IMG/VR virus record: IMGVR_UViG_3300031772_008746
Span: 1-39,169 of that record
Length of the DNA stretch: 39,169 nt
Strand: one strand, 5' to 3'
Source of the DNA: a virus
Made by a program: the position numbers and the translations under genes. Below are positions 4,355 to 19,133 of the stretch, one piece after another. The notes beneath the pieces are model-generated. The model made no database searches, was not told the DNA's origin, and worked only from the letters and a program-made list of their open reading frames with translations. Within the stretch, counting starts at the first letter, position 1. Every line of letters begins with the position of its first letter.

Positions 4355-5045
4355 CGTACCTCCTCAGACACTCTTCGAATGCCCGCTCAAATTCAGGATC
4401 ACCGTAGTTGTGTGTGTGGAGACCCATTGTCACCTGTTGCGCACCAACGAGGGCCATTCCACGGGTTCGGTCTGCTAGCTTTGTCCAGGCAATCTTGACG
4501 CGCTCGATGATGTCATTCTGATTCTTGAGAGCCCGGTGAACTCCATAATGAAACGCTTGTTTTTCACTGGCATGGAAGCAGTGCAAGCCTGCAGGTTCAA
4601 GTTCCTTGGGCAATTGCCCCTGACGAAGTACTAGCTCGTGGCCCGTATCAACACCTCGATCACAATATAGACCATCGCGTGACGGATTGAAGATAACTCG
4701 TGGACTGAAACAGTTGAGTCCATTGATCATGCTGTTTGTCATATAGTCGAACAATGGTGCCTGAACGGCAGTCACCCGCGGGTCGGCAGCAAACAATTGC
4801 CATATACGTGAAACAGTGAACTCGTCGCGGAGGACAGTATCAGCGTCGACCTTGATGAACAGATCATATTCACTTTTACAACTGTTCCAAACGTTCCACA
4901 GGATATTGTGAGCGTCTTTTTCAGGCAAGTTAGCAATGATGTGATGGGTAATTGCGACGTGCTCCTGCACTGTGATGAGACGTGATGATTCTTCGAAGTC
5001 GCCCTCGCGACAGTACAACGTGCCGATGAAAACCCTAGGTGTCAT
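4326..5045 (-). CDS. GT-A (family 2-like) glycosyltransferase
   Basis: The 239-residue protein begins with a short strand (RVFIGTLYCREGDF). The metal/nucleotide-binding DxD motif is in LFIKVDADTVL near residue 70, followed by the FTVSRIW and VTAVQAPLF strands usual for GT-A folds. The start is the ATG at 5043-5045, whose ATGA overlaps the aminotransferase stop; an in-frame extension to 5111 lies inside that gene and is rejected. Several His and Cys residues in the C-terminal third (HCFHASEKQAFHYGVH) may shape the active site. Specificity cannot be read. Confidence 0.75.
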   Translation of the reverse strand: MTPRVFIGTLYCREGDFEESSRLITVQEHVAITHHIIANLPEKDAHNILWNVWNSCKSEYDLFIKVDADTVLRDEFTVSRIWQLFAADPRVTAVQAPLFDYMTNSMINGLNCFSPRVIFNPSRDGLYCDRGVDTGHELVLRQGQLPKELEPAGLHCFHASEKQAFHYGVHRALKNQNDIIERVKIAWTKLADRTRGMALVGAQQVTMGLHTHNYGDPEFERAFEECLRRYDETQNHSAR

Positions 5046-6190
5046 TTCGTTAGCTCCATGACCCTGTGCGCAATGTGATGTATGTCTTCTTCTTGCAGCC
5101 ACCAACCGCAAGGCAATGAAAATTGATGGCTTGAAAATTCTCTAACGCCAGGCAAGTTTGTCTTAAATTGTTTGAATGCTGTGTAATCATCATTAGGAAC
5201 ATGAACAATACCGGCCATGATGCCTTCAATGTTCAGAACCCTCAACAATTCATCACGATCAATGTGAGCACGATTCGAATCAATTTTCATGGCATAGACC
5301 CAGTGACTAGAAAACGCATCATCATGACGTTTCAAAGGACGTACGCCAGCATGATTTCGAAAAATCTGATCATATATCGATGCATTTGACCGATGGGCAC
5401 CCAAAATTTGATCGATGTATTTGAGCTGTGACAGTCCAACTGCAGCAGCGAGATTGTTCATGTTGAACTTATAGCCACTTTCAACAATGTCAACGTCCCA
5501 ATGTTGTCCTCTCCAATCGCCTTTTTCATCTTTGACTCGATCGCGATCTAGACCAAACCATTTCAACGCTTTTGCACGATGGTGATCAGCTGGACGTTGA
5601 CAGACGAGCGCGCCCCCGTCGCCGGTCGTAAAGTGTTTGATAGCCTGAAAAGAGTAACACGTGTAGTGTGCCCAGGCATGGGCTGGTTTTCCTGCAAATC
5701 CTGAATCGAAAGCATGTGCGGCATCGAGAATCAAGGCAACACCGCGTTCATCACAGACCTGACGAATTCCTCGAAGATCAGGTGGCGTGCCGGCCCAAGC
5801 GACAACGATCACAGCCTTGGTTTCCAGTGTCATTGCACTTTCAACCGTTTGAGGTGTCACCATCCCAAATTCAGGATCAATGTCGGCCCAAACAATGTGG
5901 GCCCCGGCTACGATGATAGGAGTGTTTGATGCTACACATGTCATCGGTGTGCTGATCACATGATCCAAGTGTCCCACGTCTGCAAGGCGCAAGGCCAACG
6001 TCAAGGCAGACGTGCAACTGTTTGTCAGTATCAAATTGTCTGCCTGTAGTTCGTGCTCCATGGCCTCTGTCAACTTAGAAACCTCGACACCCTCATTGAT
6101 AAATCCCGAATCAAACACGGATTCGATCAAATTCAAGGCATCAACTTTGTTAACGTGAACCTTGAACAGAGGATATTTTGCTACACTCAC
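5042..6190 (-). CDS. DegT/DnrJ/EryC1/StrS-family PLP aminotransferase
   Basis: The family transfers an amino group from glutamate to a nucleotide-linked keto-sugar. The 382-residue length is typical. Visible landmarks are TNSCTSALTLAL (55-66), LDAAHAFD with Asp156 for the PLP ring nitrogen, and the Schiff-base lysine Lys185 in SFQAIKHFTTGDGG. The gene starts with GTG (6188-6190), overlaps the dehydratase stop as GTGA and has a GAGGAG Shine-Dalgarno 9 nt upstream. Lying next to a PseB-type 4,6-dehydratase, it most likely aminates the 4-keto intermediate, as PseC or PglE do. Confidence 0.92.
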   Translation of the reverse strand: MSVAKYPLFKVHVNKVDALNLIESVFDSGFINEGVEVSKLTEAMEHELQADNLILTNSCTSALTLALRLADVGHLDHVISTPMTCVASNTPIIVAGAHIVWADIDPEFGMVTPQTVESAMTLETKAVIVVAWAGTPPDLRGIRQVCDERGVALILDAAHAFDSGFAGKPAHAWAHYTCYSFQAIKHFTTGDGGALVCQRPADHHRAKALKWFGLDRDRVKDEKGDWRGQHWDVDIVESGYKFNMNNLAAAVGLSQLKYIDQILGAHRSNASIYDQIFRNHAGVRPLKRHDDAFSSHWVYAMKIDSNRAHIDRDELLRVLNIEGIMAGIVHVPNDDYTAFKQFKTNLPGVREFSSHQFSLPCGWWLQEEDIHHIAHRVMELTK

Positions 6191-7194
6191 TTGCGAATCT
6201 CCTCAATCGATCGACCAGCAAAGTCATCAGACTTCATGTCGATGATTCCAAGACTGGTCAAGTGTTGTCTAAGCTGTGCCTTCGTCATGACGTTCTGATC
6301 GCTCGAATACGTGAATCGGGGACCTGCGGCTGAAGAATGCGCCGGCTCGATCACATAGTGAAGATCGATGGATTCTGTACGAACAGATTCTGATTCATTG
6401 ATCAGATCCTCGTGTTTCTTTTCGCCCGGACGGAGGCCGACGATCTTGACCTTTTTGTCGTGTTGTTCGGCAAAGATCTCTGCAAGGTCTCCGATACGCA
6501 TTGAAAACAACTTGGGAATCCACGTTTGCCCATTATGGCCTTTTTCAATGGCACTGAGAATCAGATCGACAGAATCGTCCAGTGTCATGACGTACCTTGT
6601 CATATCAGGGTCGGTGACAGTCAAGAACTCTTGCGTCTCAGCCTGGTATTTGAACAGCGGGATGATGCTCCCGCGGGATTCAAGAACATTGCCATAGCGA
6701 ACTGCAAGAAACCTGACATCGGGTCGACCTGACAACTCTTGACTTGTCACAATGCGTTCTGACACGGCCTTACACATGCCATAGACGTTGACGGGAGAAC
6801 AAGCCTTGTCAGTGCTGACGAACAACACTGCGTGGAACGTCATGTCTCTCAGGTCGTTGATGGCAGCGACGATGTTTTGTGTTCCTATCAGGTTGGTGGC
6901 AACGGCTTCATTTGGACTGCGTTCACACGTGTCGACCTGCTTCAGTGCTGCTGCAATGATGACGTGGGCCGGCCTCACCTGACGAATGACGTCCTTGACA
7001 CGGGAATAATCACGCACGTCGCCGACGTAGAAATGAACGTCCCTACCCCGATCCTGCGCTGCAAGTTCGTTCTTGATCGTCCAGTGCTTTGCCTCATCGC
7101 GGGAGTACACAGAAACATGGTTCTTGCGCGACAATCGGTCGATCAGCTTTTTTCCTAGCGAGCCCGTGCCGCCAAAAATGAGGTACCGTGACAT
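6187..7194 (-). CDS. pseB: PseB/CapD-type UDP-N-acetylhexosamine 4,6-dehydratase
   Basis: A short-chain dehydrogenase of 335 residues, the size of soluble PseB rather than the membrane-bound FlaA1/PglF forms. It has the nucleotide-binding GGTGSLG (8-14), VYSRDE (29-34), GDVRD (58-62), AAALKQVDTCERSP (81-94), STDKACSPVN (127-136) with Asp129-Lys130, the Tyr138-x3-Lys142 pair, RYGNVLESRGS, and the late GLRPGEKKHEDL motif. The family converts UDP-GlcNAc to a 4-keto-6-deoxy sugar, in PseB with C5 inversion. It is the committing step for the aminotransferase that follows and overlaps it. The inverting versus retaining outcome cannot be settled by eye. Confidence 0.9.
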   Translation of the reverse strand: MSRYLIFGGTGSLGKKLIDRLSRKNHVSVYSRDEAKHWTIKNELAAQDRGRDVHFYVGDVRDYSRVKDVIRQVRPAHVIIAAALKQVDTCERSPNEAVATNLIGTQNIVAAINDLRDMTFHAVLFVSTDKACSPVNVYGMCKAVSERIVTSQELSGRPDVRFLAVRYGNVLESRGSIIPLFKYQAETQEFLTVTDPDMTRYVMTLDDSVDLILSAIEKGHNGQTWIPKLFSMRIGDLAEIFAEQHDKKVKIVGLRPGEKKHEDLINESESVRTESIDLHYVIEPAHSSAAGPRFTYSSDQNVMTKAQLRQHLTSLGIIDMKSDDFAGRSIEEIRK

Positions 7195-7224
7195 GTGTAG
7201 ATTATCCTTTATGTCGAACAGACG

Positions 7225-8055
7225 TTACATTACAGAGATCATTTCTTCAAATGATGGAACATTCAACTTAGAACACAGATCATGAACTGTTGACAATGTC
7301 CTATCAATTTTGTTGAAAGCAGCAGCGTGATTGATTGACAAGTTAAGTCCAAATTGTCGATTGAACGCTTCAAGCATCTCAGCTTTTGTTACAGGCGTTG
7401 GATTGAAAATGTGTCGAAGTCCGACGCAATATCGATCGTTCAATATGATGTCATCACAGCACTGAGCAAATTGTTGCGTTGTCACGCCGTTCCAGAGGTG
7501 ATTGGTGTAACCGGTGACAGACTTTCCTCGTTGTGACATAGCCCAACCTAGTAGGCTAACTGCCCCATGCAATTCTGTTCCCACAAACGATGTTCGAATG
7601 ACCATGCACGTGGTGGGTTCACCCGTGAGTTTTGACAAACCGTACGAATCGACCGGTTTGGGTTCATCGAGCTCCGTTGATTGTCCTTTTTCGCCACTAA
7701 AGACGCAGTCTGTCGAAATGTGAATCAAACGTGAACCAGCTTGTTCGCATGCTGCAGCCAATTTTTGGGGGAACACGACATTGAGACGGTACAGTTGCTC
7801 GTCATTCAGGGCATTCTGCTTGATCCCACCGATGCAATTGATGACGTAGTCGTATCCATCAAATGATGTCTTTGTTTTGGCATCGATGTAATCGAGTGCG
7901 TCAAAGTAAAAGTGTCGCGTGGGATCATAAGAGTATTTTATGTTACGCAGCGACAAGCTAACATCGTGATCTGTTTTGGTCACAAAATGGTGACCCAAAG
8001 CATGTCCCAACATACCTGTGCTACCCAAGACAGCTAGTTTATACCGCCTTGACAT
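7225..8055 (-). CDS. RmlD-like NAD(P)-dependent nucleotide-sugar reductase (SDR family)
   Basis: From the ATG at 8053-8055 the protein is about 276 residues, beginning MSRRYKLAVLGSTGMLGH with the GxxGxxG dinucleotide motif. It continues with YVINCIGGIKQ, LIHISTDCVFSG and a YGLSK catalytic Tyr-x3-Lys, all in the order of dTDP-4-dehydrorhamnose reductase and of WbjC/CapF-like reductases. These reduce 4-keto (or epimerised) 6-deoxy nucleotide sugars. It sits directly upstream of the PseB-type dehydratase, so a shared 4-keto intermediate is likely. The start overlaps the preceding glycosyltransferase by 17 nt; a longer frame to 8106 lies inside that gene. The exact product is inference. Confidence 0.87.
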   Translation of the reverse strand: MSRRYKLAVLGSTGMLGHALGHHFVTKTDHDVSLSLRNIKYSYDPTRHFYFDALDYIDAKTKTSFDGYDYVINCIGGIKQNALNDEQLYRLNVVFPQKLAAACEQAGSRLIHISTDCVFSGEKGQSTELDEPKPVDSYGLSKLTGEPTTCMVIRTSFVGTELHGAVSLLGWAMSQRGKSVTGYTNHLWNGVTTQQFAQCCDDIILNDRYCVGLRHIFNPTPVTKAEMLEAFNRQFGLNLSINHAAAFNKIDRTLSTVHDLCSKLNVPSFEEMISVM

Positions 8056-8875
8056 GCATTTTTTCCGGAGGTGTGATGATAGAAACGCGAGTTTCTTGAT
8101 AACCAATCGTGTTTTGAACGTTTGGACCGCAATAGCTACCTGCGATTGTGCCGTTATTCCAACTTAGCCTGGCATGAAACAAACCTCCGTCAATGATACC
8201 AAACTTGTCATGATGCCGTTCAAACATGAGTTGATAATCAAGTTCACTAAACTTTTTTCCCGAGCGCGAGGTTTTTTCGAGCTCTGTAAACACTTGTTTG
8301 AATGCGTCTAGACGATTGACGCTGTGAAGTTGTGACAAAAAATCTGTCACAAAAAAACCTGCAGTGTCTGTCTCAGAAATGGAAATGGGCTGACGTGTCT
8401 TGTGACTGATTTGATTGACCCAAGCATACGTCCTAGAACCGGTTACCGGCGCTGATTTGTTGTAGAGGCGACGTTCAGCTACTACGAACTCTTGAGCTCG
8501 AACACCGCCAACTTCAGGGTGAGTGAGCAAAAATGATTCAATGTCAGCAACTTTTTCGAGTGCAAAATGCACGTGATCAGACTCAATGACATAAATGAAT
8601 TCGTACCGTGAATCAATGACTTGCAACACCCAATTGATGGCTGACCAGAAACCCTCATTAGTCGATGATTGAAAAATGTGTTTGAAATTTTGGGCCAACA
8701 GATCAATCGTTTCAGGAACAGTTGAACCATTGTCAAAAACAATGATGTCATTTTCGATGTTGAAATTCTTGGTAATCTGTTCATTTTTGATGCTTTCAAT
8801 CACTTGTTTCAAAATGTCAAAACGAGTTTGTTCTACACAACAAGTGATCAACAGGTAAAGAGTTTTCTGTGTCAT
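8039..8875 (-). CDS. GT2-family glycosyltransferase
   Basis: From the ATG at 8873-8875 the protein has 278 residues. It starts with a GT-A strand (TLYLLITCCVEQ), followed by IIVFDNGST near 47-55, which replaces the usual V-D-D-xS-T, then NEGFWSAINW and the acidic motif FIYVIESDHVHF at about 93-104. These correspond to the NDP-sugar binding and DxD-like region of family 2 enzymes. A frame extending to 9058 would run through the next gene and is rejected. A four-base gap separates it from the small gene upstream. Confidence 0.8.
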   Translation of the reverse strand: MTQKTLYLLITCCVEQTRFDILKQVIESIKNEQITKNFNIENDIIVFDNGSTVPETIDLLAQNFKHIFQSSTNEGFWSAINWVLQVIDSRYEFIYVIESDHVHFALEKVADIESFLLTHPEVGGVRAQEFVVAERRLYNKSAPVTGSRTYAWVNQISHKTRQPISISETDTAGFFVTDFLSQLHSVNRLDAFKQVFTELEKTSRSGKKFSELDYQLMFERHHDKFGIIDGGLFHARLSWNNGTIAGSYCGPNVQNTIGYQETRVSIITPPEKMHVKAV

Positions 8876-8879
8876 CAAA

Positions 8880-9131
8880 TTACTCACAAGGAACAGCAGT
8901 AAATCCGTGTGGCTCGATTGTGATGATGCACTTGATGTTTTGACTGGGTGGGTGCTCTGAACAACAACATGAACCCGTCGACACCCAACCTTCACCTCGA
9001 GTGAGGGCAGCAAGAATCGGTTCCAAGAACAGTTCACGTAGTCGAGCTTCAAACTCACCCCCGGTGATGAGTCCCTCTTCGTACATTTCTACGTACGTTT
9101 TGGTGATCACAACGATATCGTTGTCTTTCAT
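8880..9131 (-). CDS. Small hypothetical protein (83 aa)
   Basis: Not recognised. The ATG at 9129-9131 overlaps the stop of the split glycosyltransferase C-half as ATGA; a GTG one codon earlier is the alternative. The first 50 residues look helical and acidic (EMYEEGLITGGEFEARLREL). The C-terminal part holds a cysteine run (GSCCCSE) and a late cysteine, which could bind metal. There is no membrane segment. Confidence 0.55.
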   Translation of the reverse strand: MKDNDIVVITKTYVEMYEEGLITGGEFEARLRELFLEPILAALTRGEGWVSTGSCCCSEHPPSQNIKCIITIEPHGFTAVPCE

Positions 9132-9688
9132 CACAGTGATTCAATCAACCTTCTGTAGGGTTCATATCCCATGGGCAATTTCAGGTGTTCAACGTTTGGA
9201 ACTGCGGGTGTTGTTGCCGATAGAGCGTCTGCTGTGAAATCTATTGCAATTGCACATGGTGGTAGCACTTGTTCAGCAATACCCACGGGAGTTGAAATAA
9301 CAGAGATGTTTAGCAAACCACATTCAATCAATGATTGTGGGCCACCTTCGCAACGAGCAGTCACGGGGTACAAGTCTAGACATTGATAGAGCTCATTAAC
9401 ATTTTGTTGGGGAGGTCGTTCAAAATATGTGAAAGGAACGTGTTCTTTCAACAAGCGACTAATGACGTACTGTCGACGCCATCCAATAAGAACTACGTGC
9501 AAATTTTGATGTCGTGTCTTGTTTTGTACGATGTAATCACACAAGATATCAGGACCCTTTTCAAGCTTAGGCAAATACTGACCCATGGAAATCCCAGCAC
9601 CTTCTGTGTCGCGTTGCGCGCTTCCAATGAGAAATGCGTCAATTGGCAACTGATACTTCTGTCTGAGCGCTGTTTTGATCTTGTTCAT
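9131..9688 (-). CDS. C-terminal half of a split GT-B (group 1) glycosyltransferase
   Basis: A 185-residue C-terminal Rossmann half: FLIGSAQRDTEG, then KGPDILCDYI, HVVLIGWRRQ, and the donor-binding CEGGPQSLIECGLLNISVIS with its conserved glutamate. It lacks any N-terminal acceptor domain. The missing half is the gene at 10308-10763 on the other side of a GIY-YIG endonuclease gene. Joining the halves at the shared GAACA copies restores one frame of 313 codons, the size of the neighbouring GT-B enzymes (310 and 317). The likely start is ATG 9686-9688, inside the tail of the endonuclease ORF (50-nt overlap). It may be made separately and pair with the N-half, or be inactive. Confidence 0.85.
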   Translation of the reverse strand: MNKIKTALRQKYQLPIDAFLIGSAQRDTEGAGISMGQYLPKLEKGPDILCDYIVQNKTRHQNLHVVLIGWRRQYVISRLLKEHVPFTYFERPPQQNVNELYQCLDLYPVTARCEGGPQSLIECGLLNISVISTPVGIAEQVLPPCAIAIDFTADALSATTPAVPNVEHLKLPMGYEPYRRLIESL

Positions 9689-10304
9689 ATTTCTTTTTCC
9701 AACGACGTTTAGAGGCTTCTGAACATTTCTGGCATGCTTCTTTTGATAGACGTTGTCCTCGTTTTTTAATTGCAATTTTAGCTTTTGTTTCATCTGAGTG
9801 TCGTTTTCCATGTCGGGCAGCCATTTTTCCCGTGCGCCCAAATTGTGGATTTCGTTGACCCAATTTTGTTTCTCTCAACAACGCACGTGTTTCTTCTGAA
9901 ATAGGCGGCCGTTTTTTTGCACCCAAAGATATTTTCAATTGTTCATTTGGATCCATGAAACGACGATGTTGAGCCTCACTAAGATGTTGTCTTGCAAGAA
10001 CATTTGGTACTGCGCCTTCGCCACCCGTTGATGAATTGTATCCATGATTTGGGTCATTACTTTGATAAAATGTAATCCACTTCTTTTCAGCTAGCAGTGC
10101 TTCAGATTGTGTAGCCAGTGTTTCTAGAACAATGGATATCCAATCACTCTCACCATAAAGTGAAATTGCACGATGAAAATGATACTTGCTACCGCATTTG
10201 GCGGTTGCAACATGTCTCCTCCAACGCTCATCAATGGATTTTGATGTCCAACCTACGTAACATTTGCTAGTTGTTTTGTTTGTGTGTTGGTAGATTATGA
10301 ACAT
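9639..10304 (-). CDS. GIY-YIG homing endonuclease with NUMOD3-type repeats
   Basis: The 221-residue protein opens with the GIY-YIG nuclease core: IIY at 3-5, YVG at 16-18, an arginine-rich RWRRH (27-31), Glu73 in LLAEKKWITFY, and HGYNSSTGGEG (88-97). The basic C-terminus holds NUMOD3-like DNA-binding segments, such as ISEETRALLRETKLGQRNPQFG and the HSDETKAKI and LSKEACQKCSEASKRRW repeats. Such enzymes cut a homologous allele lacking the insert, so that repair copies the gene into it. It starts three bases after the N-half stop and its end overlaps the C-half. There is no room for a group I intron core on its 3' side, so it looks like a free-standing insertion. Confidence 0.92.
   Translation of the reverse strand: MFIIYQHTNKTTSKCYVGWTSKSIDERWRRHVATAKCGSKYHFHRAISLYGESDWISIVLETLATQSEALLAEKKWITFYQSNDPNHGYNSSTGGEGAVPNVLARQHLSEAQHRRFMDPNEQLKISLGAKKRPPISEETRALLRETKLGQRNPQFGRTGKMAARHGKRHSDETKAKIAIKKRGQRLSKEACQKCSEASKRRWKKKYEQDQNSAQTEVSVAN
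9682..9686 (-). repeat. GAACA direct repeat, copy at the C-half edge of the endonuclease insertion
   Basis: GAACA on the minus strand, in the codons ATG AAC AAG of the C-half. With the copy at 10373-10377 it brackets 691 nt. Deleting one copy plus the intervening DNA rejoins the glycosyltransferase frame exactly. Confidence 0.55.
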
Positions 10305-10307
10305 GTC

Positions 10308-10763
10308 TCATTGTAATCTACCGTTGGAACACGTAAATTGCTGTGTGGGAGAAATTGTTGGAACATCATCAATGTTCTCTAGTGTTGTCATCTTGAATAT
10401 GGATCCATTTGCCCAATAATTGATGACGTGAATCGGTTTCTGGGTCAGTGGACGGATGAACGCTTCAGTGTACCTATTCGGCACGTGGTACACCGTCGTG
10501 AATTTATCACAGGCAATGAAGTCTGCCAACTCTGCTGTCCCAAACTTTTCTGGGACGATGTGATGCACCGTGGTGATGACCTTTTTACCGTGCAGAAGAC
10601 CCGGGTCAGCCAAGCGCCGCCAACACCAGTTTGCATGCAGCCACACCACATCAGCATCTTTTGGGTGCAAGACACTGATGTCACCGTTGTCTTCATTCCA
10701 CTCTTTGACAAAACGGTCAACGATCCATGATTCGTTTGGTGCTAGAACGAACACGCGATTCAT
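10308..10763 (-). CDS. N-terminal half of a split GT-B glycosyltransferase
   Basis: A 151-residue ORF. The first 130 residues are a GT-B N-terminal domain, with Rossmann-like strands MNRVFVLAPNESW, DADVVWLHANW, KKVITTVHHIVPEKF and the linker PIHVINYWANGSIFK that normally leads into the donor domain. The last 21 residues and stop (from about IDDVPTI) have no place in the family and come from inserted sequence. The donor domain continues at 9688 on the far side of the GIY-YIG gene. The reconstructed enzyme is 313 residues. Whether the two fragments assemble is unknown; the split NrdA of Aeromonas phage Aeh1, interrupted by mobE, is a precedent for function in two pieces. Confidence 0.85.
   Translation of the reverse strand: MNRVFVLAPNESWIVDRFVKEWNEDNGDISVLHPKDADVVWLHANWCWRRLADPGLLHGKKVITTVHHIVPEKFGTAELADFIACDKFTTVYHVPNRYTEAFIRPLTQKPIHVINYWANGSIFKMTTLENIDDVPTISPTQQFTCSNGRLQ
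10373..10377 (-). repeat. GAACA direct repeat, copy at the N-half edge of the endonuclease insertion
   Basis: GAACA on the minus strand, in the codons GAG AAC ATT of the N-half. It is in the same codon phase as the copy at 9682-9686, so one may be a target-site remnant. Confidence 0.55.
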
Positions 10764-10778
10764 GTCGAGATACTACCA

Positions 10779-11732
10779 TCAGATGAGCGACGCGAACAAC
10801 TCAATGTACGCTTGTGCCACGTGGTTGATGTCGATATTCAAGATTCCCGTATAATCGAGATCCTCGCGGGAAGGCAAAAACTTGACCTGTGTGACGTCGA
10901 TCTCAGGTGGATTATCGTAATCTGCCAACTCAAAATTATAGGCATGCGGTTCTTTGAGGACTATCCCATAGGCACCGTGACCGATCAGTTCCTTGGTCCC
11001 ACCGACCTCACTGCACACCACGGGGGTACCCTGTGACAGTGCCTCAACGATGACGTTGGGACAGTGATCAGCCCATGCCAGGTGTAGCATCCAGTTCGCG
11101 GCAGAATAGATCTGCATGTAGACCTCAGGGCCAACTGCTCCTGCATAGAAAATGTGGGGTCCCACGATTCGACAATCAGGGTGGTCACCCAAAACGATGA
11201 GACAGCTATTTGGATGCTGCGTAGCACGCAGGTGATCAAACAATTTGATGTTTGCTGCAAGTCTCTTTTGTGGGTGCCAGTTAGAACTACAGACGTAAAT
11301 TTGATCGTAGGCGGCGCGCATCTCCGCGAGCTTAGGAATAGTAATCTCCTTGACTCTTGTCAGTTCAAGGTCAACGCCATTGCTGATGATTGTGTAAGGT
11401 TTCTGTTGATCGTGAACACCCCACCAGTGATCAACCATGTCATGATCAAATTGTGATTGGAACACGATACAATCAGCTCGGTCGAACAAGGCCTTGATTC
11501 CTCTATTTTTGATTTCGTACTCGTTGGGTTTAAACCATATTCCATCGAGACGTTGGACGACTTTCTTGGCCAATGGCTGACCCGTTGGTTCAATGAAGAC
11601 CAACGACACGTCAGCTTCGGGACCTTTGTCGACCAACTCGTGACCTGAGTTAAATAGGGCAACTGCAAGTCGCTGTGCGAAAGTCCCAGGGCCAGTTTTG
11701 AACTGATGTACGTTGTCAAAATGTACTTTCAC
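10779..11732 (-). CDS. GT-B (GT4-like) glycosyltransferase
   Basis: A full-length 317-residue group 1 glycosyltransferase. It has the N-terminal glycine-containing FKTGPGTFAQRL, the strand VSLVFIEPTG, and ADCIVFQSQFDHDMV, where such enzymes carry their acceptor-side helix. The domain link is YTIISNGVDLE, the donor domain opens with QIYVCSSNWHPQKR, and the donor-binding segment is DHCPNVIVEALSQGTPVVCSEVGG, with the conserved E-x-Leu/Ala-x-x-G-x-P pattern. The GTG start at 11730-11732 overlaps the upstream stop as GTGA. It probably acts in the same glycan assembly as its neighbours. Confidence 0.9.
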   Translation of the reverse strand: MKVHFDNVHQFKTGPGTFAQRLAVALFNSGHELVDKGPEADVSLVFIEPTGQPLAKKVVQRLDGIWFKPNEYEIKNRGIKALFDRADCIVFQSQFDHDMVDHWWGVHDQQKPYTIISNGVDLELTRVKEITIPKLAEMRAAYDQIYVCSSNWHPQKRLAANIKLFDHLRATQHPNSCLIVLGDHPDCRIVGPHIFYAGAVGPEVYMQIYSAANWMLHLAWADHCPNVIVEALSQGTPVVCSEVGGTKELIGHGAYGIVLKEPHAYNFELADYDNPPEIDVTQVKFLPSREDLDYTGILNIDINHVAQAYIELFASLI

Positions 11733-14220: not shown

Positions 14221-14500
14221 GTTCATCTCCACACATGCAGAAAATTGACACGCATTGGCCTATACCCGTGTCGATGATTTTCCATCCAAGAGCTCGGCCG
14301 GCTGCACTAGCATATGGAAATTTGCCTTTGTGTTTGTCGATGATGTGTTGATTGACCCAAGCGTTTGCTTCTGCACGTTGTTCTTTTGAAAGAAAACCAA
14401 CCGGCTGAAGATCTGTTGATGTTTTTCGTGGCCTGCCATACTTCCTTTCGAACCATGCATCTGAACCGAAATCATCGGCTAGCTTGAATTCACCAGTCAT
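14192..14500 (-). CDS. Hypothetical protein (102 aa)
   Basis: Not recognised. The chosen start is ATG 14498-14500 (MTGEFKLADDFGSDAW), overlapping the methyltransferase end by 11 nt; the longer frame to 14575 would be internal to that gene. The middle is helical and charged (SKEQRAEANAWVNQHIIDKH). The C-terminus holds CVSIFCMCGDEHD, a cluster of three cysteines and a histidine that could bind metal. There is no membrane segment. Confidence 0.6.
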   Translation of the reverse strand: MTGEFKLADDFGSDAWFERKYGRPRKTSTDLQPVGFLSKEQRAEANAWVNQHIIDKHKGKFPYASAAGRALGWKIIDTGIGQCVSIFCMCGDEHDVTNFDDW

Positions 14501-17882: not shown

Positions 17883-19133
17883 GTGGATAACACGGTTCAA
17901 CTGCAACACGATGTCAGGCTAGCGATCGAGGTCGTCGTTTTCACCGTCAAGCGTCTGCTCGATGCTGACGTTAACACGGTCATGATCCCAGTCGATTCAC
18001 GTCCAGTGACACAGACTCGTTTGCAGTTGTTTTACAACTTGAAGTGGTCCAATCGAGTTCAATCTCGAGTTTGGGAAATCGTGTTGACCCATGCCGTGGC
18101 TGCTGAAAAATTGGGTCCCGGGGCCTTCGATCCGACACTCAGGAGCATCATAGAAAATCTCGAGTGTCACTTGAAGGGACAACAACCTTCCTTTATTTTG
18201 AACAACTCGTGTGTCACCTCGAGGCACTCTTCAGAAACAGACCTCAAGCGGCTCATTACAACATACGATGTCAATTCACTGACCCGGTCGATGCTCCATA
18301 CGGCCTTGCATCTGGCCGGTTATGGGGGACGCATTGTGGTTGAAAAGACGCATGCCCAAGTGTCGTCCGTGGAATTGGTCAATGGTTACAATTTCACTGT
18401 GAATCCTGGTTGGCCCATGTCAGTTCGTCTTGAGTCACCACGGGTGTTTGTCATCGACGGTTATATCGAGCAGGTATCAGAGGTGAATCACCTGCTCGAG
18501 GCTGCCAGTGAAACCAGAGAATCAGTAGTGATGTTTTCACGGGGACTGTCAGATGACGTGTTGCATACCCTCCGCATCAATCACGATCGTGGAACACTGA
18601 AAGTGATTCCGCTGGTAGTTCCATTCGACCTAGATGGGATCAACACCGTCAATGACATCGCGATCGCCTCAGGTGCCAACATGGTCGCTAGCAACAAGGG
18701 TGACCTGATCAGTTCGACAAGATTCGTCGATGCCCCACGGGTAGATTCAGCGTTGGTCTATCCCACCAAAGTGGTCATCCAAGAGACCAAAACGGGACAT
18801 GCTGTGGCGGCCCATGTCGCAGAACTCAAGAAAAAACGACATAGTTCGAACCTGGTCGATGTGGGTGAATTGTACGATCGCAGAATTAGAGCATTGTCGC
18901 CCAATCAGGTCGTCATTCGCTTGTCAGACGACAAGGATTTTGTCAGAAATTCACAAGCCATCGATGTGATGCTGCGAACTTTTAGGTCACTGGTCGATCA
19001 TGGGACAACAGATGATGGTAGATCAGCGATTATAAAAGTAGCCACAGTGGTACATGTTCAAAAATGTCTAGAAACGCTGATGTCTTTGGGTGCTGTTATC
19101 ATTTCGTCTGATGACGCAAAACAGACTCCTTGA
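17883..19133 (+). CDS. Divergent GroEL-like chaperonin lacking the ATP-binding signature
   Basis: The 416-residue protein parallels GroEL. GYGGRIVVEKT (146-156) matches the GKEGVITVEDG region, and VELVNGYNFT (163-172) matches the VVEGMQFDRGY strand. Residues 181-275 match the apical domain in order: LESPRVFVIDGYI, VNHLLEAASETRESVVMFS, DDVLHTLRIN, RGTLKVIPLVVPF and DIAIASGANMV. The Ser-Asn-Leu...LYDRRIRALSPNQVVIRLS part matches the return to the intermediate domain. The GDGTTT phosphate-binding loop is absent (about 55-63 reads WSNRVQSR), and the GroEL Asp398 position aligns with valine. The protein ends about 130 residues early, missing the second equatorial part. It starts with GTG and has no clear Shine-Dalgarno. 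Confidence 0.8.
   Translation: MDNTVQLQHDVRLAIEVVVFTVKRLLDADVNTVMIPVDSRPVTQTRLQLFYNLKWSNRVQSRVWEIVLTHAVAAEKLGPGAFDPTLRSIIENLECHLKGQQPSFILNNSCVTSRHSSETDLKRLITTYDVNSLTRSMLHTALHLAGYGGRIVVEKTHAQVSSVELVNGYNFTVNPGWPMSVRLESPRVFVIDGYIEQVSEVNHLLEAASETRESVVMFSRGLSDDVLHTLRINHDRGTLKVIPLVVPFDLDGINTVNDIAIASGANMVASNKGDLISSTRFVDAPRVDSALVYPTKVVIQETKTGHAVAAHVAELKKKRHSSNLVDVGELYDRRIRALSPNQVVIRLSDDKDFVRNSQAIDVMLRTFRSLVDHGTTDDGRSAIIKVATVVHVQKCLETLMSLGAVIISSDDAKQTP

Follow-up and report, generated by a model that had tools for sequence, protein, structure and literature searches.

In the window, as I call the whole stretch of DNA analysed here (39,169 bases of an IMG/VR virus fragment), the coding sequence of a viral GT4-type glycosyltransferase is interrupted, at the linker between the two domains of the predicted enzyme, by the gene of a free-standing GIY-YIG homing endonuclease. 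Judged by homology, the gene split is real, and it adds a well-supported example to the phage genes split by homing endonucleases. Taken as a whole, the history that I consider probable is that a free-standing endonuclease left its place beside the target gene and entered the linker, that no splicing takes place, and that the enzyme is now likely to consist of two chains. Splits by free-standing homing endonucleases are known from T4-like phages; as far as the literature searched goes, a glycosyltransferase target appears to be new. The homing-endonuclease splits known in phages concern a few core replication and nucleotide genes, whereas the gene affected here encodes an accessory sugar-transfer enzyme, and the break, which falls exactly at the domain boundary, is unusually clean.

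The split gene and its uninterrupted relatives

The left part of the window is a minus-strand cluster of sugar genes; phage-type genes follow on the plus strand in the right part, with PHROGs matches to a head maturation protease, a DNA helicase and PhoH. A 416-aa ORF at 17883–19133 (plus strand) also matches a GroEL-type chaperonin (phrog_5725, 1.5e-15). Within the cluster, the minus-strand order is a 317-aa GT4-type glycosyltransferase (10779–11732), the N-half of the split gene (10308–10763, 151 aa), the GIY-YIG endonuclease (9639–10304, 221 aa), the C-half (9131–9688, 185 aa), an 84-aa ORF (8880–9134) and a 278-aa ORF (8039–8875); several further glycosyltransferases lie around the split gene. 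The three central ORFs have the coordinates given in the original prediction, and its figures of 310 and 317 aa for the neighbours of the split gene are likewise correct. The C-half ATG (9688) does lie inside the endonuclease ORF, the last 50 nt of which overlap the C-half in another frame.

Residues 1–126 of the N-half (10763–10386) align with the same residues of uninterrupted orthologues, the highest identity being 69%, whereas residues 127–151 are a tail translated from the insert. The C-half is 56–66% identical to orthologues, matches Glycos_transf_1 (33.0 bits, cut-off 26.4) and retains the GGPQSLIE, GWRRQY and QRDTEG motifs.

A search of viral contigs with the N-half matched 67 loci, one of which is a second copy of the window virus and one of which is cut by the contig end; all the remaining ones carry the N- and C-domains in a single open frame of 298–351 aa. 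With further searches that used the C-half as query and covered bacterial and archaeal genomes, both domains were found contiguous in 111 distinct relatives (94 viral and 17 genome-contig proteins), a 42-residue match close to the end of a locus on a Poseidonia contig (L186) being set aside. These relatives match across the junction, which bears out the proposal that the two halves are parts of one glycosyltransferase gene; the test that the original prediction had set for itself, a mismatch of uninterrupted orthologues at this place, thus gave agreement. No other split copy was present among all fetched loci, within which the split is confined to the window virus. The phage GenBank records held no relative of either half and so yielded no isolate with a known host. 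The genome-contig proteins (L152–L168) are uninterrupted relatives in assemblies of Candidatus Actinomarina and other marine genomes.

The best control is the L028 contig, in which the same genes stand in the same order around a whole glycosyltransferase (304 aa). The orthologue of the 278-aa gene follows the intact gene there (54% identity), and the orthologue of the 317-aa neighbour lies directly upstream of the intact gene in L028, L062, L005, L017 and others. The 84-aa ORF, which sits between the C-half and the 278-aa gene and contains a GSCCCS motif, is absent between the corresponding L028 genes and gave no confident family match.

Position of the break

Structure prediction was applied to an uninterrupted orthologue. 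The AlphaFold2 model of the L062 enzyme, built from a 55-sequence alignment (pLDDT 93.4), has as its best solved matches the GT4-type GT-B enzymes MshA (3c4q) and BshA (6d9t), both with a probability of 1.00; the split enzyme is accordingly classed as a GT4-type glycosyltransferase with a GT-B fold, and sugar transfer is its predicted activity. The L062 counterpart of T126 in the window is residue 125, which lies in the loop joining strand 110–112 to helix 128–134, and the first strand of the C-terminal domain in the model is 142–148. With domains assigned from the GT-B fold, the model suggests that the break separates the two Rossmann domains at the interdomain linker and leaves each half a whole domain: the N-half up to T126 would comprise the N-terminal Rossmann domain and the linker, and the C-half from K3 onward the C-terminal Rossmann domain, of the nucleotide-sugar-binding type. 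Modelled alone with AlphaFold2, the C-half forms one domain that begins with the helix following the linker (pLDDT 83.9).

In the alignment, similarity ends at T126 in the N-half and resumes within the first five residues of the C-half. Linker length, counted between a conserved W (replaced by F in the window) and the leucine of LRKK, was compared among 55 relatives: it is 8 residues in 29 of them, 7 in 19, 9 in three, 11 in two, and 15 and 19 in one each. Joining T126 to K yields a linker of 8 residues; joining the halves at the GAACA repeat that the original prediction took for the edges of the insert yields 12, a length found in none of the 55. An insert of about 703 nt is for this reason favoured over one of 691 nt, and the comparison favours a junction in which T126 is joined to K (AAG at 9682), the insert so defined spanning 9683–10385 on the minus strand with an uncertainty of a few codons.

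The GAACA copies themselves are present at the 5' edge (10377–10373, minus strand) and the 3' edge (9686–9682) proposed for the insert, at a spacing of 691 nt that keeps the codon phase, exactly as described. An in-phase 5-mer shared within ±15 nt nevertheless occurs in 44% of shuffles (P about 0.44), so that the repeat, being at chance level, is rejected as a target duplication and finds no support as an exact boundary; the 313-codon reconstruction built on it, with its 12-residue linker, is likewise unsupported. Other in-phase repeats are CAAGAT at 712 nt and ATGA at 703 nt (copies at 10391–10388 and 9688–9685). Repair junctions at microhomology are known from illegitimate homing events (PMC2988022), and none of GAACA, CAAGAT and ATGA can be singled out as the repair junction.

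Two chains or a broken gene

The two chains, each a whole domain, would most likely associate as a working enzyme in the manner of the split NrdA of phage Aeh1, and I rate the chance that the halves form such a two-chain enzyme as slightly better than even. The same insertion may instead have killed the enzyme, as a recent disruption of a dispensable glycosyltransferase whose halves have yet to decay; this is a serious possibility, though I regard it as doubtful. Since both halves are open and conserved and each is a whole domain, a two-chain enzyme is somewhat likelier than a freshly broken gene.

Neither half contains a stop or a frameshift, and mean identity to the same 29 relatives is 0.588 for the N-half and the C-half alike, which argues against a dead enzyme. 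So do the position of the C-half ATG, exactly where homology resumes, the presence of the split in two contigs, and the location of the break at the only point where neither domain is cut. On the other hand, near-invariant residues are changed at 3 of 34 N-half sites and 1 of 47 C-half sites, and this total of four, against zero to three in most relatives, is a slightly raised count that would suit a dead enzyme. Two of the changes, W123F and F148A, lie beside the junction; F148A was considered as a mark of the split and rejected, the L188 enzyme also having A there. A dead enzyme would also be in keeping with the other glycosyltransferases alongside in the cluster, and with the decay, by a 325-bp deletion, of the endonuclease itself in a related pair of viruses (L188 and L220). 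Likewise, the endonuclease is AT-rich at third codon positions (GC3 0.257, against 0.39–0.66 in neighbouring genes); this foreign composition, unlike that of the flanks, fits a recent arrival, and a very recent disruption would look identical to a functional split. Without selection, a stop would probably have arisen in the C-half once substitutions exceeded about 0.11 per site, which suggests that the C-half is either still under selection or was cut off very recently.

GC3 is 0.58 for the N-half and lower by 0.197, at 0.38, for the C-half; of the 56 genes compared only one shows a larger drop, and this too would suit a dead enzyme. The closest relative of the C-half is L028 and that of the N-half L003. 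Recombination of the C-half with an L028-like virus, a candidate prompted by the higher C-half identity and the GC3 drop, was not statistically shown: the N- and C-half trees place the window differently, and none of the completed tests rejected a shared history (AU p 0.12–0.32).

There are precedents for activity in two pieces. Aeh1 nrdA, interrupted by mobE, and gene 43 of Aeromonas phage 25 are both active when divided (PMC2988022). The original prediction had compared the window with Aeh1, and the comparison is supported: mobE encodes a free-standing homing endonuclease and interrupts a phage enzyme gene that relatives carry intact, its own relatives adjoin the same gene, it has a hairpin at its start, and NrdA is made as two separate chains, which in the window are predicted from the ORFs (PMC2988022). 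The two cases differ in that MobE is an HNH and the window endonuclease a GIY-YIG enzyme, and in that nrdA is a core metabolic gene with demonstrated two-chain activity (PMC2988022), whereas the target in the window is a GT4-type glycosyltransferase whose two-chain function is predicted. The seg43 element of phage 25 is closer in type, being a free-standing GIY-YIG (Seg-type) endonuclease with a split enzyme gene, but its target is a DNA polymerase, the split there may predate the endonuclease, and the halves of gene 43 have been shown to co-purify with activity (PMC2988022).

GT-B enzymes in particular can work as separate domains, as Alg13/Alg14 does (PMC8993221). In Alg13/Alg14 and in EpsE/EpsF the enzyme is divided, as in the window, between its N- and C-terminal domains; these pairs, however, are related to GT1/GT28 and not to the GT4-like family of the window enzyme, and theirs is an ancient, stable split without an endonuclease (PMC8993221). 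I consider it an even proposition that a GT4-type glycosyltransferase of one chain became a functional GT-B enzyme of two when the endonuclease inserted into the linker; if true, this would exemplify a natural and recent route to a domain split of the Alg13/Alg14 and EpsE/EpsF kind.

The endonuclease, its expression and its relatives

The product of the inserted gene is predicted to be a GIY-YIG homing endonuclease with NUMOD3 motifs. It matches the GIY-YIG domain (43.6 bits, cut-off 22.6), NUMOD3 in two stretches (29.9 bits, cut-off 20.4) and, in PHROGs, the homing endonuclease family phrog_314 (1.8e-29). Its GIY-YIG catalytic domain is homologous to that of I-TevI (1mk0), with which it aligns at E 4.6e-4, RW..H motif included; the I-TevI-like residues are intact, Y5, Y16, R27, H31, E73 and N90 being invariant among four relatives.

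Group I introns often encode GIY-YIG enzymes that carry NUMOD motifs. This combination, together with a score of 60.5 bits against the NCBI group I intron endonuclease model (TIGR01453, cut-off 56.05), raises the possibility that a self-splicing group I intron, with the endonuclease encoded in it, makes up the insert, so that one full-length enzyme would be made. I regard this as very improbable and reject it on two grounds. First, the window gave no Rfam match at gathering scores, and no Rfam intron family matched within 9000–10800 up to E 10. Second, there is no room: the ORF fills about 620 of the 703 inserted nt, which leaves fewer than 90 nt for a catalytic core. In addition, the closest relatives found of the endonuclease sit between genes and not in a split gene. 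Unlike I-TevI, which is encoded in a group I intron, the window endonuclease thus lies in no detectable intron, and with neither an intron nor an intein the RNA would stay unspliced. That the arrangement is an assembly chimera or a sequencing artefact is scarcely credible and largely refuted: the virus is a single uncultured one and the composition of the endonuclease differs, but every reading frame is intact and a second IMG/VR contig (IMGVR_UViG_3300031707_003225) shows the same split, with 5 SNPs in 7160 nt (99.93% identity). The single SNP in the C-half is at a third codon position; four of the five cluster within 98 nt (window 14296–14393).

A hairpin (10289–10322, minus strand) with a perfect 9-bp stem, GGTAGATTA (10322–10314) pairing with TAATCTACC (10297–10289), encloses in its loop both the stop codon of the N-half and the ATG of the endonuclease. 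Its folding energy is −14.5 kcal/mol (z −3.24), no shuffle out of 200 was as stable, and of the 817 minus-strand ATGs in the window, 7 have a stem of at least 9 bp, a count that includes the ATGs of this hairpin. Start signals hidden in similar hairpins have been described for I-TevI, segB and Aeh1 mobE (PMC2988022). Ribosomes finishing the N-half would open the hairpin and so couple translation of the endonuclease to that of the N-half, and translation of the C-half would start at ATG 9688, where the endonuclease gene has not yet ended. A point against this reading is that the C-half has a weak ribosome-binding site (−3.3 kcal/mol, which puts it at the 27th percentile of local ATGs), although those of the N-half (−3.1) and the endonuclease (−3.0 kcal/mol) are no better. 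A search for promoters and terminators gave nothing convincing.

Homologues of window genes were present at only four of the 80 loci collected in the search for relatives of the endonuclease, namely the window virus itself, L188, L220 and L203 (the L051 contig). Of these, L188 and L220 belong to one lineage; L051 was among the query sequences of that search, which L188 and L220 were not. In L188, L220 and L051, the endonuclease is followed directly downstream by the orthologue of the split glycosyltransferase. The term endonuclease transposition has been used for elements of one type that flank a gene in some phages and interrupt it in another (PMC2988022), and the positions seen at this gene fit that pattern. 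Because related endonucleases sit just upstream of the same gene elsewhere, the element probably travelled only a short distance to enter the gene from its flank, through break repair involving little or no sequence homology. DNA comparison of the insert with the related endonuclease loci gave short matches only, with no shared insertion unit traceable.

Viruses with the same type of endonuclease just outside the gene and viruses with the same gene but no endonuclease thus form a before-and-after series, which bears on how such elements enter genes and on how one enzyme becomes two chains. L028 has an endonuclease remnant further upstream in the cluster. The 325-bp internal deletion that distinguishes L220 (2992–3314) from the nearly identical L188 (2992–3639) amounts to decay of an endonuclease upstream of the same glycosyltransferase. 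In L051, the sugar-gene cluster holds two GIY-YIG endonuclease genes and an ORF resembling an endonuclease tail (1862–2299, 5001–5309 and 7032–7526).
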